DNA of 64,000 nt from Serinicoccus hydrothermalis (GTDB taxonomy: Bacteria > Actinomycetota > Actinomycetes > Actinomycetales > Dermatophilaceae). Below the pieces are notes generated by a model. That model made no database searches. It was not told the origin of the DNA and saw only the letters and a list, made by a program, of their open reading frames with translations. Positions 103 to 63,950 of this stretch are shown one piece after another; the stretch's first letter is position 1; every line of letters starts with the position of its first letter. Both the position numbers and the translations under genes were made by a program. Location: the NCBI RefSeq assembly GCF_001685415.1, contig NZ_CP014989.1:1612001-1676000 (forward strand), written 5' to 3'.

Positions 103-1272
103 GTGAGCACCCGCGACCTGGACGTGAGCCTCGGCGCCACCGGCGTCGGCGGGCTCTCCACCACCGAGATGGTGCTCAACATCGGCCCCCAGCACCCGGC
201 CACCCACGGCGTGCTGCGGCTGCGCATCACCGCGGACGGCGAGCGGATCACCGCCGCCGAGCCGGTCATCGGCTACATGCACCGCGGCGCGGAGAAGCTC
301 TTCGAGGTCCGCGACTACCGGCAGATCATGGTGCTGGCGAACCGGCACGACTGGCTGTCCGCCTTCAACAACGAGGTGGGTGTCGCGCTCACCGTCGAGC
401 ACCTGCTCGAGATGGAGGTCCCCGAGCGCGCGACCTGGACCCGCACCCTGCTGTGCGAGCTCGGGCGCGTGCTCAACCACCTGATGTTCCTCGGCTCCTA
501 CCCGCACGAGCTCGGGGCGATCACCCCGATGTTCTACGCCTTCCGCGAGCGCGAGGAGATCCAGGCGGTCATGGAGGAGTACTCCGGCGGCCGGATGCAC
601 TTCATGGCGACGCGGGTCGGGGGGCTGCTGCACGACCTGCCGGAGGGCTGGCTGGACCGGGTCGACGCAGCCGTGGCCTCGGTGCGCTCCCGGCTCCCCG
701 ACCTCGTCGGGCTGGTGCTGGGCAACGAGATCCTGCAGGCCCGCACCCGTGGGGTGGGGGTGCTGGACCTGGACCAGGTGCTGGCCTACGGCGTCTCGGG
801 GCCGATCGCCCGGGCCTCGGGGCTGGACGTCGACCTGCGGCGGGACGAGCCCTACCTCGCGTATGCCGAGCTCTTCGGCGAGGACGGCCCCGGGCGCGTG
901 GTGACCCGGGAGGCCGGCGACTGCCTCGCCCGGCTGGAGGTGCTGGTCGAGCAGGTCGAGGTGAGCCTGGACCTCGTGCTGGCCTGCACCGCCCGGCTGC
1001 GCGAGCTCGGGCCCGGGCCGGTCAGCACCCGGCTGCCGAAGAAGCTCAAGGTCCCGGCCGGCGAACACTACTGCGCGAGCGAGAACCCGCTGGGCTTCAA
1101 CGGCTACTACCTCGTGAGCCGCGGCGACACCGTGCCGCACCGGCTCAAGCTGCGCTCGGCGTCCTTCAACAACGTCCAGGTGCTGCGCGAGATGCTGCCC
1201 GGCGCGGTCGTCGCCGACATGGTGGCGATCCTGGGCTCGATGTTCTTCGTCGTCGGGGACATCGACAAGTAG
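103..1272 (+). CDS. nuoD: NADH-quinone oxidoreductase subunit D homologue (stand-alone)
   Basis: Homologue of the 49-kDa/NuoD subunit of complex I, a peripheral-arm subunit beside the quinone pocket. NuoD landmarks appear in order: [16 protein letters not shown] (residues 26-41), [33 protein letters not shown] and a C-terminus ending VGDIDK. At 389 residues it is shorter than NuoD of a full actinobacterial nuo operon (about 440). No other nuo gene adjoins it: the gene downstream is convergent and unrelated. The GTG start lies 9 bp after the preceding stop and gives an N-terminus of about 25 residues before the conserved block. Family assignment is firm. Whether it assembles into complex I or another hydrogenase-like complex cannot be seen here. 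Confidence 0.93.
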
Positions 1273-1283
1273 CGGCGAGGCCG

Positions 1284-1925
1284 TCAGGCGCGCAGCACGC
1301 TGACGCAGAAGTCGGCGTCGGTATGCCAGGGGCGCAGGTCCCAGGTGGCGAAGCGGTGCTCGAGGCGCAGCCCGGCGGCCCCGGTCGCCGCGTCGAGGTG
1401 GGCCGGGGTGAAGCCGCGGACCACCCGGCAGCCGACGACGAGGAAGCCGCCGGCGCGCAAGTGGGCCCGTAGCCGGGAGAGCACCTCGCCCCGGTGCGGC
1501 TCGGCCACGAAGTCCATGACGTTGCCGGCGACCAGCGCCCCGTCGAAGGGCTCGGGCTCGCCGAGGGCCGCCAGGTCGAGCGTGGCGAGATCGCCCACGA
1601 GCCAGGTGGCGCCGGGGTAGTCCTCGCGCGCCGCCCGGATGAGCGCCGGGTCGATGTCGACGCCGACGACGGTATGCCCGAGCCGGGCCAGGTGACCGCC
1701 GTGCCGCCCGGGCCCGCACCCGGCGTCCAGCAGCCGGGCGCCGCGCGGCGCGAGCACGTCCACCAGCCGCGACTCGCCCTGCAGGTCCTGCCCGTCGGCG
1801 GCCATCGTCCGGAACCGGTCGACGTACCACCGCGAGTGCTCGGGGTCCTCCAGCCCGGGCCACAGCGTGGTGTCCCGCACGCCGGGCGTCGGCTCGATCG
1901 GGACCTGCGGGTCGCGCTCGCTCAT
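1284..1925 (-). CDS. class I SAM-dependent methyltransferase
   Basis: Predicted cytoplasmic methyltransferase of 213 residues. Motif I is clear (LLDAGCGPGRHGGHLARLG), followed by the acidic motif GVDIDPAL that binds the SAM ribose and by GDLATLDL. The substrate is not evident; small proteins of this type are often annotated only as methyltransferase-domain 25 family. A longer frame opens further upstream, but ATG 1925 is chosen because a TACAGT -10-like hexamer ends 7 nt before it, which would make a leaderless message, and the residues upstream of it are low-complexity Arg/Cys. It is convergent with nuoD, with 11 bp between the stops. Confidence 0.85.
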   Translation of the reverse strand: MSERDPQVPIEPTPGVRDTTLWPGLEDPEHSRWYVDRFRTMAADGQDLQGESRLVDVLAPRGARLLDAGCGPGRHGGHLARLGHTVVGVDIDPALIRAAREDYPGATWLVGDLATLDLAALGEPEPFDGALVAGNVMDFVAEPHRGEVLSRLRAHLRAGGFLVVGCRVVRGFTPAHLDAATGAAGLRLEHRFATWDLRPWHTDADFCVSVLRA

Positions 1926-1932
1926 GACGGTC

Positions 1933-1938
1933 ACTGTA
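1933..1938 (-). promoter_or_regulatory. -10 hexamer TACAGT of the methyltransferase gene (leaderless)
   Basis: On the minus strand TACAGT is followed by 7 nt and then the ATG at 1925, so transcription should begin at or next to the start codon. No good -35 is visible. This is an inference from spacing and resemblance to the TAnnnT consensus. Confidence 0.4.
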
Positions 1939-2050
1939 GGGGCGGGCCGGGGCACGCTTGTGCGGAAGGTTGCGTCACACCGGTGCCCCTCGGCACGCCT
2001 GCGACACGAGGAAGCGCACCACCTCACGCACAACGGTGCTCGGGCGGGTC

Positions 2051-2554
2051 TCAGCCGTAGGCGAGGTCCCCGTCGGCCACGCCGTCGTCGTCATCGTCGT
2101 CGTGCTCGGTCGGCGGGATGCGGCACCACGCCTGCCCGACGAAGCCGGCGGCGGCGAGCGCGAGCGCCGCCACCGCGTGGACCACGCCCCAGACCAGCTG
2201 CACCCGCTCGCTCGGCACGTCGGCGTTGGGCAGGTGGACCAGCGCGTTCGCGGCATACCAGCCGAGCAGCGCGGCACCGCCCAGCGCCGCCGCCTGGGCA
2301 CCCACGAGGGTCCCGCGCCCGCGCTGCGGGCTGGGCCGCAGCGTCCCCCTGCCCTGCAGGTAGCGTCGGATCTGCCGGCACATGACGAGCACGAGCAGCG
2401 TCACGGCCACGAGGGGCACGAGCCCGAGCCAGGAGATCACCGGGTATGCCCCGCCGAGGGAGCGCACCACCTGCAGCAGCAGCCAGCTGGCCATCCCGGC
2501 GAGCACGGCGACGACCACGCCGGTGCGCACACGCACGCCGTCCATGCCCCTCAC
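2051..2554 (-). CDS. DUF3180 membrane protein
   Basis: Integral membrane protein of 167 residues with four hydrophobic segments (about 10-30, 37-58, 85-108 and 120-142) and an acidic tail with six consecutive Asp. DUF3180 proteins follow folK in actinobacterial folate operons (Rv3605c position in M. tuberculosis); their function is unknown. The GTG start overlaps the folB/folK stop in a GTGA arrangement, so translation is probably coupled. An in-frame ATG three codons later is an alternative start. It is the last gene of the ftsH-folE-folP-folBK unit. Confidence 0.85.
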   Translation of the reverse strand: MRGMDGVRVRTGVVVAVLAGMASWLLLQVVRSLGGAYPVISWLGLVPLVAVTLLVLVMCRQIRRYLQGRGTLRPSPQRGRGTLVGAQAAALGGAALLGWYAANALVHLPNADVPSERVQLVWGVVHAVAALALAAAGFVGQAWCRIPPTEHDDDDDDGVADGDLAYG

Positions 2555-3453: not shown

Positions 3454-4292
3454 CGCGCCGCCCCCTGCGTCAGCTGCCAGACCGCGAGCGCGTCCCGCGT
3501 CGGCGGCACCTCGTGCACCCGCACCGCCCAGGCCCCCGCCTGCGCGGCGAGCAGGCTGGTCGCCGCTGTCGCGGCGTCGCGCTGCTCGGGCGGGGTGGGC
3601 TCGGCGCCCTCCGCCGGATCCTCGCCCGGGCGGGTCGGCAGGCGACCGAGGAAGCGCTTGCGGGAGGTCCCGACCAGCACCGGCAGCCCGAGCGCCACGA
3701 CCCGGTCCAGCCCCGCCAGCAGCGTCCAGTTGTGGCCTGCGTCCTTGGAGAAGCCGAAGCCCGGGTCGAGCACGAGCTGCTCGGTGCGCACGCCCTGGCC
3801 GACCAGCTCCTCGACCCGCGCCGAGAGCTCGGCACAGACCTCCCCCACGACGTCGTCGTAGTGGTGCGTGGCGGAGGCGTCGCTGAGCAGCCCGCGCCAG
3901 TGCATGACGACGTAGCGGGCGCCGGTCTCGGCGATCATCGGCCCCATCCGCGCGTCCCCCAGCCCGCCGGAGACGTCGTTGACGAGCACCGCCCCGGCCC
4001 GCAGCGCCGCCTCCGCGACGCCGGCGCGCATGGTGTCGACGGAGACGGCATACCCCTGCTGCGCGAGGGCGGAGACGACCGGCAGGACCCGCTCGGCCTC
4101 CTCCTGCTCCGGCGGTCGCGTGCTGCCCGGCCGCGTGGACTCGCCTCCTACGTCGACGATCTGCGCCCCCTGCGCCGCGAGCTCCTGCCCGCGCGCGACG
4201 GCGACGTCCGTGTCGAGCCAGCGCCCCCCGTCGGAGAACGAGTCGGGGGTGACGTTGACCACCCCCATGATCTGGGTATGCGCGGTGCCCAC
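3450..4292 (-). CDS. folP: dihydropteroate synthase
   Basis: Joins p-aminobenzoate to the pterin pyrophosphate made by FolK; target of sulfonamides. Diagnostic blocks: MGVVNVTPDSFSDGG (pterin/Mg loop 1), VDVGGESTRPGS, VSVDTMRAGV, LVNDVSGG and DPGFGFSKDAGHN. The frame is open about 130 bp further upstream into folE, but that extension is Arg/Pro-rich shadow sequence. Two adjacent GTG codons follow a TAGGGG; the second (4292) has better spacing, giving 280 residues beginning VGTAHTQIMG. GTG 4295 or ATG 4268 cannot be excluded. The gene starts 9 bp after the folE stop and overlaps folB by 4 nt. Confidence 0.95.
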   Translation of the reverse strand: MGTAHTQIMGVVNVTPDSFSDGGRWLDTDVAVARGQELAAQGAQIVDVGGESTRPGSTRPPEQEEAERVLPVVSALAQQGYAVSVDTMRAGVAEAALRAGAVLVNDVSGGLGDARMGPMIAETGARYVVMHWRGLLSDASATHHYDDVVGEVCAELSARVEELVGQGVRTEQLVLDPGFGFSKDAGHNWTLLAGLDRVVALGLPVLVGTSRKRFLGRLPTRPGEDPAEGAEPTPPEQRDAATAATSLLAAQAGAWAVRVHEVPPTRDALAVWQLTQGAAR

Positions 4293-4300
4293 CACAGCCC

Positions 4301-4975
4301 CTACCGCCCGGTGATCAGGCTCATCGCCTCGGCGCGGGTCGCCTGGTTGCGCAGGTGGCCGCGCACGGTCGAGGTGATGGTGCGGGCGCCGGGGCGGCGG
4401 ACGCCGCGCATCGACATGCACAGGTGCTCGGCCTCGACCACGACCAGGACGCCGCGCGGGGCGAGGTGGTCCACCAGGGCGTCGGCGACCTGCGTGGTGA
4501 GGCGCTCCTGCACCTGCGGGCGCCGGGCATACACGTCGACGAGCCGCGCCAGCTTGGACAGGCCGACCACCCGGCCGTCCGGGCCGGGGATGTAGGCGAC
4601 GTGGGCCGAGCCGTGGAACGGCACGAGGTGATGCTCGCAGACGCTGTAGAGCTCGATGTCCTTGACCAGGATCATCTCGTCGTGGTCGACGTCGAAGGTG
4701 GTGCCGAGCACCGCGCTCGGGTCCTGGTCGATCCCGGAGAAGATCTCGGCGTAGGACCGCGCCACCCGGGCCGGGGTGTGCAGGAGCCCGTCGCGGTCGG
4801 GGTCCTCCCCCACGGCGAGCAGGATCTCCCGGACGGCGGCCTCGATCCGTGCGTGGTCGACGGCGCGGCCGACCGCGTCGTGCGGTCCGAGGGCGCCCTC
4901 GTCCGGGTCGGGACCGGCGCCCGCCGGGGCGGGCCTCACGCCCGCCGCGGCCTCAGGCGTGCCCGGGGTCGACAT
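4301..4975 (-). CDS. folE: GTP cyclohydrolase I
   Basis: First enzyme of tetrahydrofolate synthesis, converting GTP to 7,8-dihydroneopterin triphosphate. The zinc and substrate motifs are present: [11 protein letters not shown] (Cys near residue 113 and the following His pair), then [11 protein letters not shown] with the second zinc Cys. [19 protein letters not shown] is the conserved central helix. The first 30 residues are a low-complexity Pro/Ala extension common in actinobacterial FolE. The ATG lies inside the last codons of ftsH, a 23-nt overlap, so ftsH and folE are almost certainly cotranscribed, as in M. tuberculosis. Confidence 0.97.
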
Positions 4976-7004: not shown

Positions 7005-7203
7005 GTCAGTGACGTTCGGGGTGCCACGGGGACTCCCCGGTCCTCCTGGTCGACTCGATCCGGCGGTGTTCTCCGTGCGGCTCAACGCACGGCGCAAGGT
7101 CAGTGTTCCACCTTGCCCGGGTGCTCGGTCCCGGGCACCCCTGACGTGCCTGGGGCGCGGCGACGGCATACCTGTCGCTCGTGGGCGTGTCGGGACCAGG
7201 GGC

Positions 7204-8038: not shown

Positions 8039-8580
<542 letters not shown>

Positions 8581-8657: not shown

Positions 8658-9695
8658 CTACGTCCTCCCGCGCAACCACACACCGTCCTCCCCGCGTCCC
8701 GCCCGGACCCCGCCGGGCAGGTGCAGCGGGCCCTGGCCGTGCCAGTCGGTGACGAGGGCGTCGACGGCGAGCAGGTGCTCGCTGGTGAGGTCGGTGCCGG
8801 AGCTGCCGGCCTCCCGCGCGCAGCGCCGGTAGAGCCGCGTCCGCACCGCGGGCTCCAGCGCGGCCAGCCCCGCGACCGGCCACGGCGGCGCACCCAGGCT
8901 CCGGTATGCCTCCTGCGCGGCGGCGTCGAGCGCGTCGGCGTCGTCCCGGAGCAGGTCGGCGGAGCGGGCGAGGTTCGTCGCGAGGCCGGGGCCGAGCTCG
9001 TCCTCGAGCAGCTGCAGGGCGCGGCGGGCGCGCACCCGGGCGTAGTCGTCGACCTCGTTGTGCGGGTCGCTCCAGGGGTCGAGCCCCAGCTCGGCGCAGA
9101 CCCGCTCCGTGTGCTCCCGGGTGATCCCCCCGTCCGGCCCGGCCCGGCGGCTGCGCCGGCCACCGAGGAAGGGACGGCCCAGGAGGATCCTCGTGCCGCC
9201 GAAGGACCGGGAGGCCGGCATGCCCGCCAGCGCCCGTGCGCCCGACCCGCGAGCCAGGCCCAGGAGCACCTGCTCGGCCTGGTCGTCCCGCGTGTGGCCC
9301 GTCAGCACGGCCGACGCGCCGAGGCGCTGCGCCGCGTCGACAAGGACGGCGTACCTCTCGGCGCGCGCCTGCCCCTCCGGGCCGGCCGGGCCGGCCGGGA
9401 CGTGCACCCGCTGGACCTCCACCGGGGACCCCGTCGGCAGCAGCTCCCGGCACTGCTCGGCCGCCCGGGCCGCGACCGCGGCGGACCCGTCCTGCAGCCC
9501 GTGGTCCACGACGATCGCACCGGCCCGCAGACCCGCTCGTGGGGCCACGAAACCGGTGGCGGCCGCGAGCGCGAGCGAGTCGGCGCCCCCGGAGCACGCG
9601 ACCAGGACGAGGGAGTCCGGCGCCGGCCCGGTGTCCTCCAGCCAGCGCCGCACCGCGAGACGCGCCGCGGCCACGGCCGCGGGCGGGCCGGGCAT
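8658..9695 (-). CDS. tilS: tRNA(Ile)-lysidine synthetase
   Basis: Modifies the wobble cytidine of the CAU-anticodon tRNA-Ile to lysidine, an essential decoding step. The N-type ATP pyrophosphatase P-loop SGGADS is at residues 35-40, followed by VDHGLQDGS, LTGHTRDDQAEQVLL and GRPFLGG with RREHT-like ITREHTERVCAELGL. A separate C-terminal substrate-binding domain is short, as in other actinobacterial TilS. It begins 15 bp after the stop of the DUF2342 gene and precedes hpt. Confidence 0.95.
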   Translation of the reverse strand: MPGPPAAVAAARLAVRRWLEDTGPAPDSLVLVACSGGADSLALAAATGFVAPRAGLRAGAIVVDHGLQDGSAAVAARAAEQCRELLPTGSPVEVQRVHVPAGPAGPEGQARAERYAVLVDAAQRLGASAVLTGHTRDDQAEQVLLGLARGSGARALAGMPASRSFGGTRILLGRPFLGGRRSRRAGPDGGITREHTERVCAELGLDPWSDPHNEVDDYARVRARRALQLLEDELGPGLATNLARSADLLRDDADALDAAAQEAYRSLGAPPWPVAGLAALEPAVRTRLYRRCAREAGSSGTDLTSEHLLAVDALVTDWHGQGPLHLPGGVRAGRGEDGVWLRGRT

Positions 9696-9709
9696 ACCGG
9701 GCTCGACCC

Positions 9710-10858: not shown

Positions 10859-10868
10859 ACGGTATGCC
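10859..10868 (-). promoter_or_regulatory. -10 element inside a GGCATAC motif, upstream of the DUF2342 gene
   Basis: On the minus strand the sequence reads GGCATACCGT; TACCGT fits a -10 hexamer and is followed by 6 nt and the ATG. This is one of four intergenic GGCATAC copies that coincide with a likely -10 box. Confidence 0.4.
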
Positions 10869-10928: not shown

Positions 10929-12434
10929 TCACTCCGGCTGGCACCCGCACCGGGCCAGCTCGGCCACCACCTCGTCGAGCACCGAGGCGGCCTCGATCGC
11001 GGCCGAACCCTCGTCGAGGTCGTCGGCGGTGAGGGCATACACGAGCAGCCTGCCGTCGCGGGTGACCACCGTCCCGGCCAGCGAGCTGACGCCCGGCAGG
11101 GTGCCGGTCTTGGCGCGGGCCACGCCCACGGCGGGGTCGTGCCGGTCCAGGTGGAAGCGGGTGGCGAGCGTGCCGGTGTAGCCGGCGATGGGCAGACCAC
11201 CGGCCGCGAGGACCTTCTGCAGCGCGGGGTGCGAGCCGTCCGCACCCGCCACGAGGACGTCGGCGACGACGCCGACGGGGATCTGCGTGCCGTCGGAGAG
11301 CCCGCTGGCGTCGACGATCTGCACGCCGTCCATGTCCAGGCCGTAGTCCTCGCTCACGGTCTGCCGGATCCAGGCGGTGACGTCCTCCTGCTCGGCGCTG
11401 CCGCCGTCGGCGACCGCGGCCTGCCGGGCGAGCTGCTCGACCATGGCGTTGTCGCTCGTGGCGAGGGCCAGGGCGAGCACGTCGCGGGCCGCGGCCGACT
11501 CGACGCTGGCGAGCTCGGCTGCGTCCTCGGGCGCCTCGACCTCCTGCGCCTCGGCGCCCTCGTCCCCGGCGCCCACGACCTCGATGCCCTCCTCCGCGAG
11601 CGCCTCGCGGAAGACCCGCGCGACCTCCTGCTCGGGCGAGGTCGGGGAGGGGTTGAAGGGCAGCGCGCGGTCGCCGGAGCGGCCCAGCTGGACGATGCGC
11701 CCGCTCCACCCCTCGCGGATCCAGTGGTCCGACCACGTCGGCATGGCGTCCGGACCCGCGACGTAGGAGAGGTCGAGCCGGACCCGGACCGTCCCCTCGG
11801 GGCCGCCGCCCTCCTCCAGCGCGTCCGCGGTCTGCGCCGCCAGGTCGCCGATGCCGGCGTGCCCGGCGACGGCCTCGGGGTCGCCGGCCCCGTCGGCCAG
11901 CAGCATGTCGCCGCCGGCGACGATGATCACCTCGTCCGGCTCGGCGCCCGCCACGACCCGGGTGGTGAAGGTGTGGTCGCCCTCCAGACCGGTGACGATC
12001 GCGGCGGCGGACAGCAGCTTGGTCGTGGAGGCCGGGGTGACGAGCCGCGAGGAGTGGCGGTCTGCCAGCGACTCACCAGTGAGGGCGTCCCGGATCGCCA
12101 CGGCGCGCCGGTTGGTGCCCCCGAGCCAGGTGCTGTCGAGCTCGTCGCTGATCTGCATCGACAGGGCCCCGCGGTCCGGCACCGGCGCGGCGGAGACCGG
12201 CGCGACCGGGCTGACGGGGGCGGCGACCCGGGGCCGCACCGCCACCGGGCCGGTCGGCGCCTCGGTCGTGGCGCTCGCCTCGTCGGTGGTGGGCGCGGAC
12301 GTCGTGCTGGCGGGCTCGTCGGGCGCTGCCGTGGTCGCCGCCGACGGCACGGCGGCACCCGCGAGCAGCGCGACCACCGCGGTCGCCGCGAGGGCGTACC
12401 GTGGGACTCGCCGGGGCGCGGGGCGCGGGCGCAT
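10929..12434 (-). CDS. dacB: D-alanyl-D-alanine carboxypeptidase/endopeptidase (PBP4, peptidase S13)
   Basis: Secreted or anchored peptidoglycan hydrolase of 501 residues. After a basic start a signal peptide (about residues 10-32, ending VPSAATTA) is followed by an Ala/Thr/Pro-rich linker to about residue 85. The serine peptidase triad motifs are SxxK as STTK (Ser near 136), SxN as SDN in ATSDNAMVEQL, and KTG in RAKTGTLPGVSSLAG. The frame extends upstream of ATG 12434, but that would place about 65 residues of shadow sequence before the signal peptide. It is divergent from ppa across about 95 bp. Confidence 0.93.
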   Translation of the reverse strand: MRPRPAPRRVPRYALAATAVVALLAGAAVPSAATTAAPDEPASTTSAPTTDEASATTEAPTGPVAVRPRVAAPVSPVAPVSAAPVPDRGALSMQISDELDSTWLGGTNRRAVAIRDALTGESLADRHSSRLVTPASTTKLLSAAAIVTGLEGDHTFTTRVVAGAEPDEVIIVAGGDMLLADGAGDPEAVAGHAGIGDLAAQTADALEEGGGPEGTVRVRLDLSYVAGPDAMPTWSDHWIREGWSGRIVQLGRSGDRALPFNPSPTSPEQEVARVFREALAEEGIEVVGAGDEGAEAQEVEAPEDAAELASVESAAARDVLALALATSDNAMVEQLARQAAVADGGSAEQEDVTAWIRQTVSEDYGLDMDGVQIVDASGLSDGTQIPVGVVADVLVAGADGSHPALQKVLAAGGLPIAGYTGTLATRFHLDRHDPAVGVARAKTGTLPGVSSLAGTVVTRDGRLLVYALTADDLDEGSAAIEAASVLDEVVAELARCGCQPE

Positions 12435-13064: not shown

Positions 13065-13230
13065 GCGGCGCAGCTCGTCGTCGCAGGGAACCGGGGGGTG
13101 GGGTATGCCGTCGTAGCGGTGTGCGGGAGCCGGTCTCCCGCCACCGCCGCGCTACGCTTGACCGCGCAGGGCCACTGGCCGAGGTGGTGACGACGGCGCG
13201 GCATTCCGCGCAAAAACTAAGGGGAACGAC

Positions 13231-43440: not shown

Positions 43441-43527
43441 GCTGTACCCGACACCTCGGGTGCTGGACATCTGCGCTGGTCGCCCGGCCTCCCGGCATAC
43501 CCCCGGGGGGTTGGTGACGAAGCGGTC

Positions 43528-48333: not shown

Positions 48334-49184
48334 ATGCGCATGGCCAGGCTGTCGCCGTGCTCGACGGGGACGGGGAGCACGGGGCGCACCTGCACCGGCT
48401 CGCGGACCCAGTCGTCCAGGTCGGGGCCGCTGACGCCGGCCAGCTCCTCCACCATGACCAGCGTCGGCGGGAGCAGCACGTCGCGGCCCGCCTCCCGGTC
48501 CTGCAGGATCTGCCCCGGCGAGCGCCAGCCGGCGACCTCGGCCTCGGTGCTGGCGTCGTCGGCCCGCTGCCCCTCGGGCATCCGGGCGGCGAAGAAGGTG
48601 GTGTCGTAGCGGCGCGGCTCGCACTCCGGGGTGATCCAGCGGCCGCGCACACCGAGCAGGTCGGTGCGCAGCACGAGGTCGTGCCGGGCGAGCAGCTCGG
48701 CGAAGCTCAGGGAACGATCCAGCAGGGCGGCCCGGCCCTCCCGCCACACCGGGTCGCGCAGGTCGGAGACGACCTCGTCCGCGGCCGGCCCCGCCAGCAG
48801 CACCCCGCACTCCTCGAAGACCTCGCGGGCGGCGGCGGTCACCAGCTCGCGGGCGCCGTCCGCGTCGGTGCCGAGCCGTCCGGCCCACTCCTGCGCGGAC
48901 GGTCCGGCCCAGGGGACGTCGCGGTCGGCGTCACGCGTGTCCACTCCCCCGCCGGGGAAGGCCAGCATGCCGGCCGCGAAGGCCATGCTCCCGGCCCGGC
49001 GGAGCACGAAGACCTCCAGCTCCGGTCGGTCGCGCAGCAGCATGACGGTGGCCGAGCGGCGCGGCTCCGCGACCGCGCGCCGGTCCTCGGGCGTCGCGAG
49101 CCAGGCCCGCGCGGCGTCCGCGACGACCGGTGGCACGGCGAAGTCGCGGTATGCCGGCTCCTGGTCCGCGAGGCCGTGCGCCAC
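48324..49184 (-). CDS. NUDIX hydrolase (NUDT19-like)
   Basis: Protein of 286 residues. RSATVMLLRDRPELEVFVLR and MAFAAGMLAFPGGGVD lead to a Nudix box interrupted by an insert (DTRDADRDVPWAGPSAQEWA) before AAREVFEECGVLLAG, the arrangement of the RP2/NUDT19 CoA-diphosphatase branch. Substrate inferred only from that. GTG 49184 follows the RidA stop by 5 nt; the residues LADQEPAYRDFAVPP then precede the domain. A start without a good ribosome-binding site suggests coupling to RidA. The stop lies in the tandem repeat. Confidence 0.85.
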   Translation of the reverse strand: MAHGLADQEPAYRDFAVPPVVADAARAWLATPEDRRAVAEPRRSATVMLLRDRPELEVFVLRRAGSMAFAAGMLAFPGGGVDTRDADRDVPWAGPSAQEWAGRLGTDADGARELVTAAAREVFEECGVLLAGPAADEVVSDLRDPVWREGRAALLDRSLSFAELLARHDLVLRTDLLGVRGRWITPECEPRRYDTTFFAARMPEGQRADDASTEAEVAGWRSPGQILQDREAGRDVLLPPTLVMVEELAGVSGPDLDDWVREPVQVRPVLPVPVEHGDSLAMRIPR

Positions 49185-52677: not shown

Positions 52678-53142
52678 ATGAGCGACGCGACCGGTCTCAA
52701 GGCCACCCTCCAGCACGACCTCACGTCCGCGATGCGGGCCAAGGACAAGGTCCGCGCGGGCACCCTGCGGATGGCGCTGACCGCCGTGACGACCGAGGAG
52801 GTCTCCGGCAAGGAGGCGCGCGAGCTCACCGACGACGAGGTGCTCAAGGTCATCACCAAGGAGGCGAAGAAGCGGCGCGAGGCCGCCGAGGCCTACTCGG
52901 GGGCGAACCGGCCCGAGCTGGCCGCCCAGGAGGAGGCCGAGCTGGAGGTGCTCGAGGCATACCTCCCGGCGCAGCTGTCCGATGACGAGCTCGCCGAGAT
53001 GGCCCAGCAGGCCGTCACCGAGACGGGGGCGAGCGGGATGCGCGAAATGGGCCAGGTCATGAAGGTGCTCCAGCCGCGGATCGCGGGGCGGGCCGAGGGC
53101 GGGCGCGTGGCCGCCGCCGTGAAGCAGGCTCTGGGCGCCTGA
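52678..53142 (+). CDS. GatB/YqeY domain protein
   Basis: Protein of 154 residues related to the tail domain of GatB/GatE, thought to bind tRNA. Typical blocks: LKATLQHDLTSAMRAKDKVR, LRMALTAVTTEEVSGKEARE, DDEVLKVITKEAKKRREAAE and the C-terminal SGMREMGQVMKVLQPRIAGR. No transamidase activity is implied. GACACT ends 6 nt before the ATG and may be an own promoter. Confidence 0.93.
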   Translation: MSDATGLKATLQHDLTSAMRAKDKVRAGTLRMALTAVTTEEVSGKEARELTDDEVLKVITKEAKKRREAAEAYSGANRPELAAQEEAELEVLEAYLPAQLSDDELAEMAQQAVTETGASGMREMGQVMKVLQPRIAGRAEGGRVAAAVKQALGA

Positions 53143-54110: not shown

Positions 54111-55553
54111 TCAGCCGTAGGGATCGCCGCAGCCGCCTCCCTGCTCCCACCCGGTCACCCCGGGCACGTCCTCGGGGTCGTCCCCCGGCCTGGCGTTGCC
54201 GAGCAGCACCCGGGTGAGCTCTTCGTGCCCGGCGAGCAGGCCGTCGAGGGCGCTGCGCAGGTGCTCGTCCCCGGGCTCCTCACCGGCCATCGCGGCGGCC
54301 AGCACGGCGCGGCGCACGAGCTCCTTGACGAAGGAGGCGGTCATCCCCTCGGTGCGGCGGGCCGCCTCGGCGAGCGCCTCGTCCCCGAGGTCCAGCCCGC
54401 CCTGGTAGAGCTCGAGCAGCCGGCGGCGCCCGGCCTCGTCCGGCAGCGGGATCTCGACCGCCAGGTCCACCCGCCCCGGCCGCTGCACCAGCGCCCGCTC
54501 CAGCGCCTGGGCGCGGTTGGTGGTGAGCAGGAAGGTCACGTCGGCGTCGGCGTCGAGCCCGTCCATCGCGTCGAGCACCTCGAAGAGCAGCGGCCGGCCG
54601 CTGGGGCCCATGCCCCGGTCCTCGGCGACGAGGTCGCAGTCCTCCAGCACGACCACCGCCGGCTGCAGCGCACGGGCGAGCGAGGCCGCCAGCGAGATGT
54701 AGCCCAGGGACTCCCCCGCGAGCACGACGACCGTGTGACCGGGGTTGCGGGAGATGAGGTGGCGGACGGTGTGCGTCTTGCCCGTGCCCGGCGGGCCGTG
54801 CAGCAGCAGGCCCCGCTTGAGGTGCTGGCCGTGCCGCCGCAACGTGTCGGCGTGCTCGGCGATGCCGCTGACGTGCCCGGCGATCCGCGCCAGCGACCCC
54901 GGCGGCAGGATCACCTCGTCCTCGCCCACCTCCGGGCGCGGCAGGAAGGTGACCCCCTGCGCCTCCGGGCCGTAGCCGGAGGACTCGAAGGCGATGACCT
55001 GCCCGCGCAGCACGCTGCGCTCCAGCGCCACCTCGCGCAGCTCGTCCAGCAGCGCGGCCCGGGTGTCCTCGTCGGCGCAGATCACCTCCAGGGAGCCCGT
55101 GTCCCGGCCGTACTGCCGGTTGCTCCTGCGCTGCATGACGACCACGGGGTGGCCGGCATACCGGAAGAGGCGCAGCCCGAGGCCGATCGCCCGCCGGTGC
55201 TCGGTCGGACCCACCGCCACGGAGGCGTAGTCGACCTGGCCCACGACACCCTGGCCGTGCCCGCCGCCGACGAGATCGCCCAGCGAGACGTGGTGCCGCA
55301 TGTCACCGCCGCCCACGCCGAGCTCGGCCGACTCCGGGTCGCGCCCGGCGACCTCCGCCAGCGCGACGTCCCAGTCGGCATACCGGTGGTTCATCACCTC
55401 CTCGGTGACCACGGCGATCTCGGCCACCGGCGCGCCGAGGTATGCCGTCAGCCGGTCGGCGAGCGGCTCACCGCTCGCCGCCCCCATGGCGCGGTGCGAC
55501 AGCTCCACCGCCTGGGTGAAGGTGCGCAGGAACTCCCTGACGTCGTCGTCCAT
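54111..55553 (-). CDS. AAA-family ATPase of unknown role
   Basis: About 480 residues. Residues 1-225 form an N-terminal domain with no clear assignment (MDDDVREFLRTFTQAVELSH). The AAA module has Walker [15 protein letters not shown] (near 252), Walker B VVVLEDCDLVAEDRG, with Asp-Cys-Asp instead of the usual DE(I)D, sensor-1 LLTTNRAQ, and the arginine finger RPGRVDLAV. Overall it resembles Vps4/ClpX-like single-AAA proteins and stand-alone actinobacterial ATPases. Its partner is unknown. Convergent with the phosphoesterase across 13 bp containing a CTGAG..CTCAG dyad. Confidence 0.85.
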   Translation of the reverse strand: MDDDVREFLRTFTQAVELSHRAMGAASGEPLADRLTAYLGAPVAEIAVVTEEVMNHRYADWDVALAEVAGRDPESAELGVGGGDMRHHVSLGDLVGGGHGQGVVGQVDYASVAVGPTEHRRAIGLGLRLFRYAGHPVVVMQRRSNRQYGRDTGSLEVICADEDTRAALLDELREVALERSVLRGQVIAFESSGYGPEAQGVTFLPRPEVGEDEVILPPGSLARIAGHVSGIAEHADTLRRHGQHLKRGLLLHGPPGTGKTHTVRHLISRNPGHTVVVLAGESLGYISLAASLARALQPAVVVLEDCDLVAEDRGMGPSGRPLLFEVLDAMDGLDADADVTFLLTTNRAQALERALVQRPGRVDLAVEIPLPDEAGRRRLLELYQGGLDLGDEALAEAARRTEGMTASFVKELVRRAVLAAAMAGEEPGDEHLRSALDGLLAGHEELTRVLLGNARPGDDPEDVPGVTGWEQGGGCGDPYG

Positions 55554-56838: not shown

Positions 56839-56845
56839 GGCCCGC

Positions 56846-56908: not shown

Positions 56909-59889
56909 GTCTGCTCTGGACGCTGATCATCTCCGCGGTGACCGTCCTCGCGACCTTCCCGCTCACCAGACTGCTCGGTCGGCACGCCGGCTGGCCGATC
57001 GCGGCGCTCTACCTCGCCGCGGCGGGGGCATACTGGCCCGCCGCCCGTGAGGTCATGCACCACGGCACCGTCGAGTGGTCGATGCCCTGGGTGCCCACGC
57101 TCGGCCTCGAGCTGTCGCTGCGCGCCGACGGCCTGGGCACCGTCTTCACCTTCATCGCCCTGGTCATCGGGGCGGTCGTGCTCGCCTACTCCACGGCCTA
57201 CCTCCAGCCCGGGCGCAACCTCACCTTCTACTTCTACATGGCGATGTTCACCGTCTCCATGGTCGGGCTGGTGCTGGCGGACGACCTCATCCTGCTCTTC
57301 CTGTGCTGGGAGCTCACCTCGCTCGCCAGCTTCTTCCTCATCGCCCGCTCCGGGTATGCCGGTGAGGCCGCCTCGATGCGCACCCTGCTCATCACCTTCC
57401 TCGGCGGGCTCGGGCTGCTCGCGGCGGTCACGGCGATCATCGTCCGCACCGGCACGACCACGCTGTCCGAGGCGCTGGCGCACGAGGTGTGGGACACCAG
57501 CCCCGGCTTCACCGCGACCGTGGCGCTGCTCGTCATCCTCGCGGCCTTCACCAAGTCGGCGCAGTTCCCCTTCCACGTCTGGCTGCCGGACGCCATGGCC
57601 GCCGCGACCCCGGTCAGCGCCTACCTGCACGCCGCCGCGGTCGTCAAGGCCGGCATCTTCCTGCTCATGCGCTTCTCCCCGGCCTTCCACGACGTGCCGG
57701 TGTGGAACGTCCTGCTCATCACGACCGGCCTGGTCACCTGCGGGATCGGCGGCTGGTTCGCGCTGCAGAAGACCGACCTCAAGAAGCTCATGGCCTACTC
57801 CACGGTCAGCCAGCTGGGGCTCATCGTCGCGACGATCGGCGTCGGCACGGAGTATGCCCTCGCCGCCGCGATCCTGCACGTCATCGCGCACGCGCTCTTC
57901 AAGTCCGGGCTGTTCATGATGGTCGGCGTCGTCGACCACGCCACCGGGACCCGCGACGTGCGCCGCATGCCGGTGCTCTCCTCCGCGATGCCGCTCGCGT
58001 TCTGGGTGACCGTACTCGGGTGCGCCTCCATGGCCGGGGTGCCGCCGATGCTCGGCTTCGTCTCCAAGGAGAGCATCCTCACCGCCATGCGCGAGGCGCC
58101 CGGCGGGACGGTCGCCGCCTGGGCCGCCTTCCTCGGCGTCGCCCTCACCGCGGTCCTCACCTTCGCCTACTGCGCCAAGATCGTCTTCAACGGCTTCTAC
58201 GACGGTCGCGGCCAGGCCAAGTGGCCCGAGGACCGGCCGCTGCACACCACGCCGTGGGCGCTGGGCACCTTCGCCGCCATCCCCATCGTCGTCGGGCTGC
58301 CGCTGGCCTTCGTCGTGGGCGCCCTCGACACCCCGGTCGGCCGGGCCACCGCCGCGATGCTGCCCGTCGACGCCGAGGAGCCGCACCCGCACCTGGCGCT
58401 CTGGCACGGTCTCAACCTCGAGCTGTTCACCTCGCTGGCCATCATCGCCGTGGGTGTCTTCATCATCCTGCGGCGACGCTTCTTCTTCCCGGCGCGCGAG
58501 CACGACACCTTCTCCTTCGACGGCGCGGACGTCATCAGGGTCATCAACGACACCGCGGCGGAGTTCGGGAAGTCCCTGTCCATGCTCGTCCGGGCGGACA
58601 ACCCGACGCGGCACGTGGCGGTGCAGTTCGTCGCGCTCGCCGCGCTGGTGCTGGGCGGGGTCGCCGTCCTGGTCTCCGGGGACCACCTGCTGCCCATCCA
58701 GGACGGCCTGGTCAGCCCGGTCGACATCGTCGTCATGGTCATCATCGCGATCGCCGTCGGTGTCCTGTGCCGCGCGAACTCGCGCCTGGCCGCCGTGGTC
58801 GCGCTGTCCACGGTCGGCGCCGCCGTCACGGTGCAGATCTTCGCGCTCGGCGCGCCCGACGTCGGCATGACCCAGCTGCTCGTCGAGGCCCTCACCGTCC
58901 TCATGATCATGCTCGTGCTGCAGCGCCTGCCGCAGACCTTCGGCCGCGGGCCGCGCTGGGGCCACAAGGCGGCCCTGCTGCTCGCCGTCGTCGGCGGCCT
59001 CTCGGCGGGCCTGGCCACCTGGGCCCTGACCGGCCGGCGCGACCGCAGCGACATCGCCCTCTACTACCTCGAGGAGGGCCCGGTCGAGACCGGCGGCGAC
59101 AACGTCGTCAACACCATCCTCGTGGAGTTCCGCGCCCTGGACACCTTCGGCGAGCTCACCGTCCTCGGCATGGCCGCGGTCGCCATGGTCGCCATCATCT
59201 CGACGGTCCGCGACAAGTACCTCGACCCGCCGCCGGAGGCCGACCGCAACTACGTGCCGCCGCCCGAGGTGCCGCTGCGCGAGCGCGGCTCGACGGCATA
59301 CCGCGCCGTCACCGAGGCCTGGGGCAACGCGGTGCCGATGCAGCTGCTCGTGCGCGTCACCGCCCCGCTGCTCGCGATCATCTCGGCGATCCTCTTCATC
59401 CGCGGGCACAACTCCCCTGGCGGTGGCTTCATCGCGGCCCTGGTCGGGTCCTCGATCGTCGCGCTCATCTACCTCGCCACCTCGCGCGACCGCATGGTGG
59501 GCCCGCCGCGGCTCCCGCTGCGTCTCGTCGCGATCGGCGTGCTCATCGCCGTGGCGACCGGCGTGCTCGGCCTCGTCGGCCACGTGTCCTTCCTCGAGCC
59601 GCTGCACACCTACATCGGCAGCTACAAGCTCATCTCGCCGATGGCCTTCGACCTCGGCGTCTACCTCGCCGTCCTGGGCCTGGTCATGGAGGCCTTCAAC
59701 CTGCTCGGCGCCACCGGCGGCGAGGGCACCCGCGAGCGCGCCGACGAGGCGATCGAGGGCGAGATCGGCGGCCCGATGGACACCTCCCGCGGCGAGCGGT
59801 ATGCCGAGACCCGCCTCGGGATCCCCGGGCGCGGCTCCACCTACCTGCAGCAGGACCTGCCACCACGCAAGGGAGGTGACCGCGAGTGA
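56905..59889 (+). CDS. mrpA: Na+/H+ antiporter subunit A (MrpA, including MrpB-like domain)
   Basis: Largest subunit of the Mrp antiporter, 994 residues. An ND5-like core with ion-pathway Glu136 (LCWELTSLASFFL) and Lys248 (AAAVVKAGIFLLMR) is followed at about 600-680 by the MrpA-specific block ALGAPDVGMTQLLVEALTVL and at 815-940 by an MrpB-like domain (FIRGHNSPGGGFIAALVGSS, SPMAFDLGVYLAVLGLVMEA), so no separate mrpB is needed. Starts ATGA-coupled to the leader ORF and ends GTGA-coupled to mrpC. Confidence 0.96.
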   Translation: MSLLWTLIISAVTVLATFPLTRLLGRHAGWPIAALYLAAAGAYWPAAREVMHHGTVEWSMPWVPTLGLELSLRADGLGTVFTFIALVIGAVVLAYSTAYLQPGRNLTFYFYMAMFTVSMVGLVLADDLILLFLCWELTSLASFFLIARSGYAGEAASMRTLLITFLGGLGLLAAVTAIIVRTGTTTLSEALAHEVWDTSPGFTATVALLVILAAFTKSAQFPFHVWLPDAMAAATPVSAYLHAAAVVKAGIFLLMRFSPAFHDVPVWNVLLITTGLVTCGIGGWFALQKTDLKKLMAYSTVSQLGLIVATIGVGTEYALAAAILHVIAHALFKSGLFMMVGVVDHATGTRDVRRMPVLSSAMPLAFWVTVLGCASMAGVPPMLGFVSKESILTAMREAPGGTVAAWAAFLGVALTAVLTFAYCAKIVFNGFYDGRGQAKWPEDRPLHTTPWALGTFAAIPIVVGLPLAFVVGALDTPVGRATAAMLPVDAEEPHPHLALWHGLNLELFTSLAIIAVGVFIILRRRFFFPAREHDTFSFDGADVIRVINDTAAEFGKSLSMLVRADNPTRHVAVQFVALAALVLGGVAVLVSGDHLLPIQDGLVSPVDIVVMVIIAIAVGVLCRANSRLAAVVALSTVGAAVTVQIFALGAPDVGMTQLLVEALTVLMIMLVLQRLPQTFGRGPRWGHKAALLLAVVGGLSAGLATWALTGRRDRSDIALYYLEEGPVETGGDNVVNTILVEFRALDTFGELTVLGMAAVAMVAIISTVRDKYLDPPPEADRNYVPPPEVPLRERGSTAYRAVTEAWGNAVPMQLLVRVTAPLLAIISAILFIRGHNSPGGGFIAALVGSSIVALIYLATSRDRMVGPPRLPLRLVAIGVLIAVATGVLGLVGHVSFLEPLHTYIGSYKLISPMAFDLGVYLAVLGLVMEAFNLLGATGGEGTRERADEAIEGEIGGPMDTSRGERYAETRLGIPGRGSTYLQQDLPPRKGGDRE

Positions 59890-60218: not shown

Positions 60219-61732
60219 TCATGACCGCAGCCCTCCTCCCGCTGCTGGCCGCGATCCCCATCGCGGCGGCCGCGGCCACCGTGCTCTGGCGCAACCCGGT
60301 GTGGCAGCGCATCTGGCTGCTGGGCATACCCGTGCTCACCGGGGCGGCCGGGCTGGACCTGCTGATCCAGCACCGGGAGACCCCCGTGCTCGCGGAGAAC
60401 GTCGGGGCCTTCGTCCCGGGTGTCGCGATCCCGTTCGTCTCGGACACGTTCAGCGCGCTCATGATCCTGGTGACCTCGTTCACCGTGCTCATGTGCCTCA
60501 TCTTCATGACCTTCACGGGGGAGAGCAGCTACCGGCTGATGCCCCCGCTGGTGCTCATGCTGCTGGGCGGCGTCAACGGCGCCTTCCTCACCGGGGACCT
60601 GTTCAACCTCTTCGTCTTCGTCGAGGTCATGCTGCTGCCGAGCTACGCGCTCATCGCCGTGACCGGCACCTGGCGGCGGCTCGGGGTGGGCCGCACCTTC
60701 GTCGTGGTCAACCTGCTGACGAGCACGATCCTGCTCATCGGCGTGGGCCTGGTCTACGCGACCGCGGAGACGGTCAACCTGGCGCTGCTCGTCGGCGCGG
60801 GCAGCGACCCCCGCACGATGCTCAGCTCGGGGGTCGTGCTGCTGGCGCTCTCGATCAAGGCCGCGGTCGTCCCGATGCACACCTGGCTGCCGCGCAGCTA
60901 TCCCGCCACCTCCGCGGCGGTCATGGGCCTGTTCTCGGCGCTGCACACCAAGGTCGCGCTCTACGCGCTCTACCGCATCACCTCGACGCTCTACGAGGGC
61001 CAGCCGCCGTGGGTCATGGTGCTGGCGGTGCTCGTCGGGCTGTCCATCGTCGTGGGCTCCTACAGCACCTTCGGCGAGCGGGTCATGCGCCGCGCGCTCT
61101 CCTGGCAGATGGTCGCGGGAGTCGGCCACATCCTGCTCGGGCTGCTGCTCTTCACCCAGTTCTCGCTGGGCGCCGGCATCTTCTACATGATCCACCACAT
61201 CATCACCATGGGGGCGCTGATCCTCGGCGCCGGCGCGATCGAGCAGACCTACGGCTCCGGGCGCTACGAGCGGCTCTCCGGCATCATCCGGCGCGACCGG
61301 ATGCTCACGATCGGGTATGCCCTCGCGCTCATGTCGCTCATCGGCCTGCCCCCCAGCTCGGGCTTCTTCGGCAAGGTCGGGCTGGTCCAGGCCTCGGCCC
61401 AGGCCGGGGGTGCCTGGCAGGTGGTCTACATCACCCTCATCTGCGTCGGCGCGCTGGGCTCGCTGGTCGCGATGCAGCGGCTGTGGGTCGGCGTCTTCTG
61501 GGGCCCGGACATGGAGGACTACCGCCCCGACTCGCCGGAGACCGGGCGCGGACCCAAGACCCTGCTCACCGACGACGTGCGCGTGACCCCCCGGCTCATG
61601 GCCCCGATGGCGGTGCTCGTCGTGACCCAGCTGACGATGTTCGTGCTGGCCGGGCCGATCATGGAGATCACCACCCGGGCCGCCACCGGGCTGGTGGACC
61701 TCGCTCCCTACGTCGAGGCGGTGACCGGCTGA
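60215..61732 (+). CDS. mrpD: Na+/H+ antiporter subunit D
   Basis: ND2/ND4-like antiporter subunit of 505 residues, about 14 TM. Key Glu in LFVFVEVMLLPSYALIAV, Lys in ALSIKAAVVPMHTWLPRSYP, then ALHTKVALYALYRI and LPPSSGFFGKVGLVQASAQA. Four-base overlap with mrpC and TGATG junction with mrpE. Confidence 0.95.
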   Translation: MIMTAALLPLLAAIPIAAAAATVLWRNPVWQRIWLLGIPVLTGAAGLDLLIQHRETPVLAENVGAFVPGVAIPFVSDTFSALMILVTSFTVLMCLIFMTFTGESSYRLMPPLVLMLLGGVNGAFLTGDLFNLFVFVEVMLLPSYALIAVTGTWRRLGVGRTFVVVNLLTSTILLIGVGLVYATAETVNLALLVGAGSDPRTMLSSGVVLLALSIKAAVVPMHTWLPRSYPATSAAVMGLFSALHTKVALYALYRITSTLYEGQPPWVMVLAVLVGLSIVVGSYSTFGERVMRRALSWQMVAGVGHILLGLLLFTQFSLGAGIFYMIHHIITMGALILGAGAIEQTYGSGRYERLSGIIRRDRMLTIGYALALMSLIGLPPSSGFFGKVGLVQASAQAGGAWQVVYITLICVGALGSLVAMQRLWVGVFWGPDMEDYRPDSPETGRGPKTLLTDDVRVTPRLMAPMAVLVVTQLTMFVLAGPIMEITTRAATGLVDLAPYVEAVTG

Positions 61733-62366: not shown

Positions 62367-62701
62367 GCATCGTCCTGAGCATCCTCATCGGGGTGCTGTG
62401 CATCGGCGGCGCCCTCTTCGTGCTCATCAGCGCCTGGGCCATGCTCCGCGCCCGGGACGGGCTGTCCCGGATCAACGTCATGTCCGGCGCGACCGGCATG
62501 GGTATGCCGTGGATGGTCACCGGCGTCTACATCCACCACGTCTGGGTGCACGGCTTCAGCGTGGTCGACCTCATCAAGCTGTTCGTGGCGATCGCCGGCT
62601 TCATCATCCTCAGCTCGGTGGCCTCGAACTCGCTGGGCCGCGCGACCTACCGTTCCGGTGCCCCCCTGGACCCGGCGACGGACCCCAACGACCTGGCCTG
62701 A
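62363..62701 (+). CDS. mrpG: Na+/H+ antiporter subunit G
   Basis: Last subunit, 112 residues, three TM helices. MrpG landmarks: GGALFVLISAWAMLRARDGL, SRINVMSGATGMGMPWM and AIAGFIILSSVASNSLGRAT. The ATG overlaps the mrpF stop. It closes a six-gene operon in which every junction overlaps by one to four bases, securing equal expression. Confidence 0.95.
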   Translation: MSIVLSILIGVLCIGGALFVLISAWAMLRARDGLSRINVMSGATGMGMPWMVTGVYIHHVWVHGFSVVDLIKLFVAIAGFIILSSVASNSLGRATYRSGAPLDPATDPNDLA

Positions 62702-62733
62702 CGGCATACCCGCCGGACGGCCGGGTCGACGTC

Positions 62734-63297
62734 CTACGTGGCGCGGTGCAGGGCCTCGAGCTCGGCCTCCATGACCTGCTCGTCGTCGGCGTCGAGCCGC
62801 ACGTGCGCCAGCAGCGTGTGCAGCACGCGCAGCGCCGAGGCCGCGCGCTCGCCCCACGAGGACAGGTAGCTGAACTGCCACCACCACATCGCCTCGGTGG
62901 GCCGCCCGGCGAAGTAGTGCTCCCGGCCGTGGGCGAGGTCCGCCGCGACGGCGACGAGGTCGTCGGCGAGGGAGCCGCGGGTGACCTCGCCGGAGAGCAC
63001 CGGGTCCTCGAGGTCGCAGTAGTCGTCCAGCCCGCCGAGCATCCCGTGCAGGGCCTCCCGGATGCGCTCCAGATCGGCGTCCGGCCCGGCGTCGGGCTCG
63101 AAGCGCTCCCGCGGGACGACGTCCATCAGGGCGCCGAGCCGCGCACCGGCGGAGCAGAGCTGGCCGACGCTCAGCAGCAGCAGCGGCAGCGCCGTGCCCG
63201 CCTCGTCGCCGGACGCGACCGTCTCCAGGCTGGTGAAGTAGGCCTCCACCTCGTCGTGCATCTCCCGCGCCGGCTGGGCCCAGTCCTCGTCGACCAT
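62734..63297 (-). CDS. DUF5063 domain protein
   Basis: Helical protein of 187 residues, MVDEDWAQPAREMHDEVEAY onward, with RGSLADDLVAVAADLAHGRE and a Trp/aromatic block TEAMWWWQFSYLSSWGERA. DUF5063 genes sit next to recR in many actinobacteria; function unknown. It begins 20 bp after recR and converges on mrpG. Confidence 0.85.
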   Translation of the reverse strand: MVDEDWAQPAREMHDEVEAYFTSLETVASGDEAGTALPLLLLSVGQLCSAGARLGALMDVVPRERFEPDAGPDADLERIREALHGMLGGLDDYCDLEDPVLSGEVTRGSLADDLVAVAADLAHGREHYFAGRPTEAMWWWQFSYLSSWGERAASALRVLHTLLAHVRLDADDEQVMEAELEALHRAT

Positions 63298-63317
63298 GGC
63301 CCCACCCTAGAGGCAGG

Positions 63318-63932
63318 TCAGCCGGTGGTGCCGGTGGAGATCATCCGGCGGCCCTCGAAGGCACGGCCGAGGGTGACCTCGTCGGCATACTCCAGGTCCC
63401 CGCCGACCGGCAGCCCGGACGCCAGGCGGCTCACCCGCACCCCGTCGTAGGGCTTGAGCAGCCGGGCGAGGTAGGTGGCGGTGGCCTCCCCCTCCAGGTT
63501 GGGGTCGGTGGCGATGATGACCTCGGCCACCTCGCCGTCGGCCAGGCGCGCGACCAGCTCGCGCACGCGCAGGTCCTCCGGGCCCACGCCGCCGATGGGG
63601 TTGATGGCCCCGCCGAGGACGTGGTAGCGCCCGCGGAACTCGCGGGTGCGCTCGATCGCGGCGACGTCCTGGCTCTGCTCGACCACGCAGATCATGGTCG
63701 GGTCGCGGCGCTCGTCGAGGCAGATGCGGCACCGCTCCGCCTCGGCGACGTTGCCGCACACCTCGCAGAAGCGCACCTTCTCCCGGATCTGCAGCAGCGC
63801 CTCGGCCAGCCGGGTGATGTCCTCCGGGTCGGTCGCGAGCAGGTGGAAGGCGATCCGCTGGGCGCCCTTCGGGCCGACACCGGGGAGCCGCCCGAGCTCG
63901 TCGATCAGGTCCTGGACCACGCCTTCATACAC
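63318..63932 (-). CDS. recR: recombination protein RecR
   Basis: RecFOR-pathway DNA clamp, 204 residues. Hh[21 protein letters not shown]; Cys4 zinc finger at 56, 59, 68 and 71 ([16 protein letters not shown]); [21 protein letters not shown]; Walker-like C-terminal [23 protein letters not shown] start, 8 nt after a TACAGT -10. Upstream genes (normally ybaB, dnaX) would be beyond the window; 68 bp remain, with no gene visible. Confidence 0.97.
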
Positions 63933-63940
63933 AGCACCGC

Positions 63941-63950
63941 ACTGTATGCC
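63941..63950 (-). promoter_or_regulatory. -10 of recR inside a GGCATAC motif
   Basis: The minus strand reads GGCATACAGT; TACAGT ends 8 nt before GTG 63932. Confidence 0.4.

Follow-up and report, generated by a model that had tools for sequence, protein, structure and literature searches.

GTATGCC as a candidate DNA-uptake sequence in Serinicoccus hydrothermalis and its relatives

Why should one short, non-palindromic word recur dozens of times along an ordinary stretch of bacterial chromosome, and what could read it? This question is raised by a 64-kb stretch of the Serinicoccus hydrothermalis genome (G000:C1:1612001-1676000; hereafter the window), in which a string count of the heptamer GTATGCC revealed 55 sites, 23 on the plus strand and 32 on the minus strand. 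By comparison, 100 dinucleotide shuffles of the window gave a mean of 2.19 and a maximum of 7 copies, and an order-2 Markov model predicted 2.8. We propose, with a probability of about 0.6, that GTATGCC (full form approximately G-GTATGCC-[G/C]T) is a candidate DNA-uptake or self-recognition sequence, which would apparently be the first in a Gram-positive lineage. To our knowledge, such self-DNA recognition words have so far been reported only from two Gram-negative families.

The word had been noticed in a sequence-only reading of the window, and its description was largely accurate. The estimate of about 55 copies on both strands matched the exact count, and the six example positions (861, 1321, 9691, 57354, 61315 and 62703) were all correct; of the per-strand figures, 32 was borne out, while "about 24" for GTATGCC was actually 23. 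Since G lies directly 5' of GTATGCC at 34 of the 55 sites, the statement that most copies extend to GGTATGCC also holds. Across the whole chromosome (3,597,394 bp, a single contig), we found 2,180 copies of GGTATGCC, divided 1065 to 1115 between the two strands, in line with the earlier view that a strong strand bias is absent, and the same letters in backward order occurred only 11 times. Further statistics were obtained from an 864-kb chromosome sample composed of the window and 40 other stretches. Under an order-3 model and among words with at least 15 occurrences, GTATGCC had the top z-score of all 7-mers (830 versus 87 expected) and GGTATGCC that of all 8-mers (574 versus 33 expected), so the Markov-corrected check suggested with the first description placed the word far above expectation. 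G was favored 1.9-fold directly before the heptamer, A was reduced to 0.15-fold directly after it and T was favored 2.1-fold at the second position after it, resulting in a consensus of approximately GGTATGCC[G/C]T. GTATGCC is not a palindrome (its reverse complement is GGCATAC), and the palindromic forms GGTATACC (6 versus 4.4 expected) and GGCATGCC (22 versus 92 expected) were not enriched in the sample. Most one-mismatch variants did not exceed expectation; some of those altered at the last two positions were exceptions. As a separate observation, GTAGGCC was approximately 2-fold enriched in the sample (236 versus 116 expected) and approximately 3-fold enriched in 88 kb from four congeners (31 versus 10 expected).

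The placement of the sites was examined with our own approximate gene calls, made without a gene finder, which covered approximately 767 kb of the sample. Within the window, 47 sites were coding, 7 were intergenic and 1 lay at a gene edge; the corresponding numbers for the sample were 689, 116 and 25, and the density was 1.20/kb between genes versus 0.90/kb in genes, confirming the intergenic presence noted earlier. The coding copies occupied all six reading frames. Synonymous codon shuffles within genes (mean of 20) yielded 63 copies versus the actual 689, with 7 to 17 times fewer copies in each of the six frames; codon pairs thus fail to explain the enrichment, and an intergenic excess is present. 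The early claims about codon usage were right and were even strengthened, as two thirds of the TAT codons (340 of 510) and 80 of 108 ATA codons in the called genes lay in GTATGCC.

Strand, spelling and conservation of the sites

A chromosome-scale strand bias is absent: the two orientations of the word numbered 93/103, 120/128, 94/108 and 96/88 in the quarters of the sampled chromosome (origin not located). The spacing of neighboring sites was strand specific. In the S. hydrothermalis sample, same-strand pairs closer than 800 bp numbered 190 versus 326.5 expected, with an observed/expected ratio of 0.2 to 0.3 below 200 bp, whereas opposite-strand pairs below 800 bp numbered 387 versus 341.5 expected. 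Orientation alternated between neighbors in 513 of 789 cases, compared with a mean of 404 (sd 14, maximum 445) in 1000 orientation shuffles. The same-strand depletion had the same direction in every pair class below 800 bp, although the smaller classes were not significant; it was strongest within genes, where 33 of 145 pairs below 400 bp shared orientation, and it was clear for pairs with one intergenic site (15 of 52).

Similar spacing was found in relatives, with variable strength. Loci pooled from other members of the genus and four other genera contained 27 same-strand pairs below 800 bp versus 52 expected, and 71 opposite-strand pairs versus 53 expected. The pool restricted to other loci of the genus had 16 same-strand pairs versus 28.5 expected, and its alternation count was not raised (75 of 154 versus a null value of 75.8). 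GGATGCC loci pooled from four genomes revealed a weak depletion (43 versus 58), with 106 alternations versus 91 (sd 6). Because the avoidance concerns the same strand only, it suggests that in this clade the reader of the word acts on single strands or scans in one direction. Known uptake systems lack such a strand rule, which gives a quantitative, directly testable clue to mechanism. Inverted pairs below 50 bp were not enriched in the sample (21 versus 21.3 expected), and inverted-repeat terminators were rejected as a main role.

The word is clade specific, with dialects around a shared ATGCC. We found 285 to 2,180 copies of GGTATGCC in 30 of the 31 genus genomes, the exception being G022 with 38 copies; among 28 further genera of the family, 14 had at least 195 copies, and 38 genomes from other families of the order had at most 123. 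The comparison of related genera that had been recommended therefore revealed a word abundant in the genus and in half of the family's other genera. In G012 and G014, a low GGTATGCC count does not mean that the word is nearly gone, as these genomes use TATGCCG-type forms that escape this count. When k-mers were scanned in G022 (8.5 kb) and in seven genera poor in the motif (20 to 60 kb per genus), GGATGCCG emerged in G056. This spelling was abundant in three genomes of the same family (G056, 3,949; G046, 3,816; G031, 1,336) and two of another family (G094, 4,491; G078, 1,548), with 159 to 392 copies of the backward-letter controls in these five genomes. Additionally, pooled samples of G034, G041, G052 and G037 contained GTATGCCG with any preceding base, some congeners of S. 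hydrothermalis used GTATGCCG or KTATGCCG, and the sampled forms in G056 and G078 were CGGATGCCGG and CGGATGCCTC, respectively; ATGCC was common to all spellings. No such word was seen in the scanned samples of G036, G038, G039, G040 and G043, from which a rare word could escape.

Conservation of individual sites was compared at two loci only. Between S. hydrothermalis and G021, 14 of 23 aligned sites were kept (approximately 41% for all aligned heptamers), with 11 of 16 kept in G026 (35% for all heptamers) and 7 of 20 in G011 (31%). Sites thus come and go, with above-average retention between the closest species. Where a site had been replaced, the sequence was often GTACGCC or CTACGCC.

Candidate genes for DNA uptake

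Of 97 genomes, 92 had a ComEC match; ComEA was detected in all but one of the 31 genus genomes, and the two genes adjoin. The genome poorest in the word within the genus, G022, has a damaged comEC. In particular, the match to ComEC breaks off at position 150 of 270, with the reading frame closing at base 8407 of an 8504-base contig, and the assembly, a 230-contig draft, yielded no further match to ComEC. G022 retains ComEA, full-length RecD and Flp. Its sister in a tree of three neighboring proteins, G012, has 774 copies of GGTATGCC, and TATGCCG occurred 0 times in 28.5 kb of G022 versus 12 times in 23.8 kb of G012. The word was lost in one lineage with a broken comEC.

Phage-like elements were found inside comEC in 2 of the 31 genus genomes, G002 (L085/L086) and G017 (L087/L088). 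The two elements differ in their end genes, and both end in a similar 475-aa serine integrase; the G002 element encodes phage tail-type proteins, and the G017 element a phage-type primase. Both occupy the same place in comEC, at about residue 312-320. As two elements with different end genes share one place, phages seem to use comEC repeatedly as an attachment site in this genus. A short direct repeat was looked for at the ends of the two elements and none was found. The ends of the elements contained 4 copies of the motif in 39.5 kb, versus 14 in 40.5 kb of flanks (binomial P 0.03).

The window itself encodes a Flp/Tad pilus cluster (Table 1). A search of the 31 genus genomes for type IV N_methyl pilins found none, whereas Flp/Tad pilins were present. 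The DUF4244 Flp family had matches in 95 of the 97 relatives, among them G022, so the presence of flp by itself does not track the word. In G006, G007 and G013, the Flp matches lay in separate pieces at distances of 13 to 40 kb, which suggests insertions in flp of these genomes as well. A Tad cluster at 1.88 Mb (L168) was also considered as a partner of the word; a close match of its TadA (at least 89%) was present in only 12 of the 31 genus genomes, no match was obtained at E 1e-60 in the motif-rich G026, and the idea was dropped. In Micrococcus luteus, according to one report, genes of two tad clusters together with ComEC are required for transformation (PMC4322843). By this precedent, Flp/Tad together with ComEA and ComEC is likely to be the uptake machinery in the clade of the window.

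Readings of the word

Several features of a DNA uptake sequence (DUS) were found together here: a short non-palindromic word over-represented on both strands, no chromosome-scale orientation bias, coding and intergenic copies with an excess between genes, clade-specific spellings, and genes for ComEA, ComEC and a pilus. These facts fit an uptake sequence better than its rivals, and of the four roles that the sequence-only reading had listed, a DNA uptake signal is the best supported. On this proposal, the cells would be naturally transformable, and the word would act at uptake, where a pilin or a ComEA-type protein may read it. Cells of the clade would take up DNA through the Flp/Tad pilus, ComEA and ComEC, and word-bearing DNA would be preferentially taken up or recombined. 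Copies would spread and persist via repeated transformation among kin, by drive plus some selection, and the other spellings around ATGCC would limit exchange between genera. Reading of the word would involve one strand and extend over some hundreds of bases, and would not be confined to the duplex. A bolder version, which we hold tentatively and with the odds somewhat against it, is that a self-DNA uptake code arose here independently, for the third time overall and the first time in a monoderm (Gram-positive) lineage, with a Flp/Tad pilus, one-strand reading in which each incoming strand needs its own tag within approximately 1 kb, and at least five dialects partitioning exchange in an order of Actinomycetia.

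In literature searches, no such word or uptake sequence in Actinobacteria was apparent from the titles or abstract beginnings of the best matches, one of which concerned the Neisseria DUS; the best matches to a search with the octamer looked unrelated on the same basis. If true, an actinobacterial case with dialects would mean that codes of this kind have repeated origins and can work with more than one type of pilus; it would make the debate of drive versus selection testable in a new lineage and might offer a natural transformation handle for this group.

Comparison with the two known systems revealed both likenesses and differences. Similar to the DUS of Neisseriaceae, the word is short and non-palindromic, with thousands of copies and clade-wise spellings around a fixed core. 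Published work describes DUS dialects around a fixed core and some genomes of that family without DUS (PMC3630211). Unlike the DUS, which belongs to Gram-negative cells with type IV pili and the ComP receptor, the word here occurs with a Flp/Tad pilus, and its core is ATGCC rather than CTG. In one study, a single-stranded DUS of one strand transforms somewhat, with the duplex preferred (PMC12061091). The consensus GGTATGCCGT and the Neisseria AT-DUS ATGCCGTCTGAA, as given in that source, both contain ATGCCGT, an overlap that is probably a coincidence. The uptake signal sequence (USS) of Pasteurellaceae (AAGTGCGGT) likewise occurs at approximately 1 copy/kb without orientation bias, as stated in two reports (PMC1939737, PMC7811141). 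In three USS genomes, we found avoidance to approximately 200 bp and an enrichment of inverted pairs below 50 bp (31 versus 9.3 expected), whereas the avoidance here is restricted to the same strand, extends to approximately 800 bp and is not accompanied by an enrichment of inverted pairs.

Several results weigh against an uptake sequence. G022 is the sole clear loss among four genomes with damaged comEC: G014 ComEC lacks approximately 136 internal residues, in frame, and the word is kept (15 TATGCCG in 23.8 kb), and comEC is split by approximately 40 kb in G002 and G017, which retain 1,043 and 1,363 copies. The breaks in these three genomes may be recent or reversible. Many relatives, such as G038 and G043, have ComEC but no such word in their samples, and the distribution of the L168 Tad cluster does not follow that of the motif. 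Sites in distant congeners are at background (2 of 9 kept in G016, 2 of 10 in G002 and 2 of 9 in G004, with 22 to 23% for heptamers), and none of 6 was kept in G014. USS genomes have a pool of decayed one-mismatch forms, unlike the mostly unenriched one-mismatch forms here. Furthermore, the GGATGCCG genome G094 has no same-strand avoidance (383 versus 382 pairs below 800 bp), and in the three Haemophilus-type USS genomes it ends at approximately 200 bp, with no long-range component; same-strand avoidance as a general rule of such words is therefore ruled out.

Among the rivals, the one that survives best is a Chi-like recombination signal, in which AdnAB or another helicase-nuclease scanning single-stranded DNA reads one strand and loads RecA, with the density serving each strand. 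The spacing is just what a one-direction, one-strand reader predicts, namely same-strand avoidance to approximately 800 bp with independence of the opposite strand, alike in direction within genes, between genes and in intergenic DNA, although not significant in every class. We nevertheless consider it unlikely, as no quarter of the chromosome has an orientation bias and the spelling varies between genera. Chi sites of E. coli are skewed in orientation relative to replication. RecD, which exceeded the cut-off in 52 of 97 genomes, is full-length in the motif-poor G022 and present in the motif-poor G040, G043 and G054, yet it is below the cut-off in the motif-rich G034, G037, G047 and G052 and in the dialect genomes G031, G046, G056, G078 and G094. 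Since RecD does not track the word (RecB and RecC were not searched), the recombination hotspot envisaged earlier is unsupported in the RecBCD-Chi sense; a version read by another enzyme may apply.

A methylation-linked repeat similar to HIP1, with a methyltransferase as the reader and sites retained for epigenetic or repair functions, is less likely again. Both are octamers over-represented across a clade, and GCATGCC, one step from GTATGCC, is depleted in the S. hydrothermalis sample (86 versus 279 expected, ratio 0.31), with 57 versus 90 expected in five motif-poor genera. Cyanobacterial HIP1, a palindrome tied to methylases, and other over-represented words track methyltransferases, according to one study (PMC4390886). 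Unlike HIP1, GTATGCC is non-palindromic, and methylation does not predict strand-specific avoidance. A role in binding a nucleoid or segregation protein, as also suggested at first, or a replication protein is disfavored and improbable: the word does cover the whole genome, but it has no orientation bias in any sampled quarter, some stretches are sparse (5, 4 and 8 per 20 kb in L006, L027 and L032), and a site for a core chromosome protein would hardly be lost from a congener or be scarce in half of the family's genera. Finally, a by-product of Tyr-Ala codon pairs, protein preference or base composition is as good as certainly wrong, for although half of the coding sites (340/689) are in the TAT-GCC frame, it is already refuted by the enrichment in all six frames and in intergenic DNA, the synonymous shuffles and the backward-letter control.

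Coordinates and other repeats

Table 1. Pilus genes and GTATGCC sites in the 64-kb window.
Feature	Position	Strand	Evidence
TadA-type ATPase, Flp/Tad cluster; candidate uptake pilus, putative link to the motif	42094..43149	-	T2SSE 5e-51; tblastn
TadB-like membrane protein	41318..42100	-	T2SSF, just below cut-off
TadC-like membrane protein	40743..41321	-	T2SSF
Flp-type pilin, DUF4244; putative major pilin	40461..40664	-	PF14029 6e-22
TadE-like minor pilin	40099..40428	-	weak, below cut-off
GTATGCC site	861..867	+	
GTATGCC site	1321..1327	+	
GTATGCC site	1672..1678	+	
GTATGCC site	2252..2258	-	
GTATGCC site	2444..2450	+	
GTATGCC site	4047..4053	-	
GTATGCC site	4526..4532	-	
GTATGCC site, intergenic	7165..7171	-	
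GTATGCC site	8904..8910	+	
GTATGCC site, gene edge	9691..9697	-	
GTATGCC site, intergenic	10862..10868	+	
GTATGCC site	11034..11040	-	
GTATGCC site, intergenic	13103..13109	+	
GTATGCC site	13410..13416	-	
GTATGCC site	15873..15879	-	
GTATGCC site	18322..18328	+	
GTATGCC site	20600..20606	+	
GTATGCC site	21222..21228	-	
GTATGCC site	21720..21726	-	
GTATGCC site	21916..21922	-	
GTATGCC site	22980..22986	+	
GTATGCC site	24156..24162	-	
GTATGCC site	25350..25356	+	
GTATGCC site	26157..26163	-	
GTATGCC site	26408..26414	+	
GTATGCC site	27845..27851	-	
GTATGCC site	29117..29123	-	
GTATGCC site	29381..29387	+	
GTATGCC site	29504..29510	-	
GTATGCC site	32071..32077	-	
GTATGCC site	32539..32545	+	
GTATGCC site	33606..33612	-	
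GTATGCC site	35981..35987	-	
GTATGCC site, within flp (DUF4244) pilin gene	40578..40584	-	
GTATGCC site, intergenic, upstream of tadA	43412..43418	+	
GTATGCC site, intergenic, upstream of tadA	43494..43500	-	
GTATGCC site	45998..46004	-	
GTATGCC site	47492..47498	-	
GTATGCC site	49149..49155	+	
GTATGCC site	51217..51223	-	
GTATGCC site	52956..52962	-	
GTATGCC site	55155..55161	-	
GTATGCC site	55377..55383	-	
GTATGCC site	55440..55446	+	
GTATGCC site	57027..57033	-	
GTATGCC site	57354..57360	+	
GTATGCC site	57852..57858	+	
GTATGCC site	59295..59301	-	
GTATGCC site	59799..59805	+	
GTATGCC site	60323..60329	-	
GTATGCC site	61315..61321	+	
GTATGCC site	62502..62508	+	
GTATGCC site, intergenic	62703..62709	-	
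GTATGCC site	63384..63390	-	
GTATGCC site, intergenic	63944..63950	+	

Other repeats were also observed in the S. hydrothermalis genome. A dispersed repeat containing CCGCACGGTTTG, often in 22-bp tandem units, had 17 copies in the 864-kb sample and was located near 459.8, 1273.4, 1800.8, 1812.3, 1997.2, 2714.9 and 2975.9 kb (L008, L017, L023, L025, L033, L036). Additionally, a run of 29 G was found near 3590941 (L022) and a run of 17 C near 993798 (L014), which are possible phase-variable tracts.

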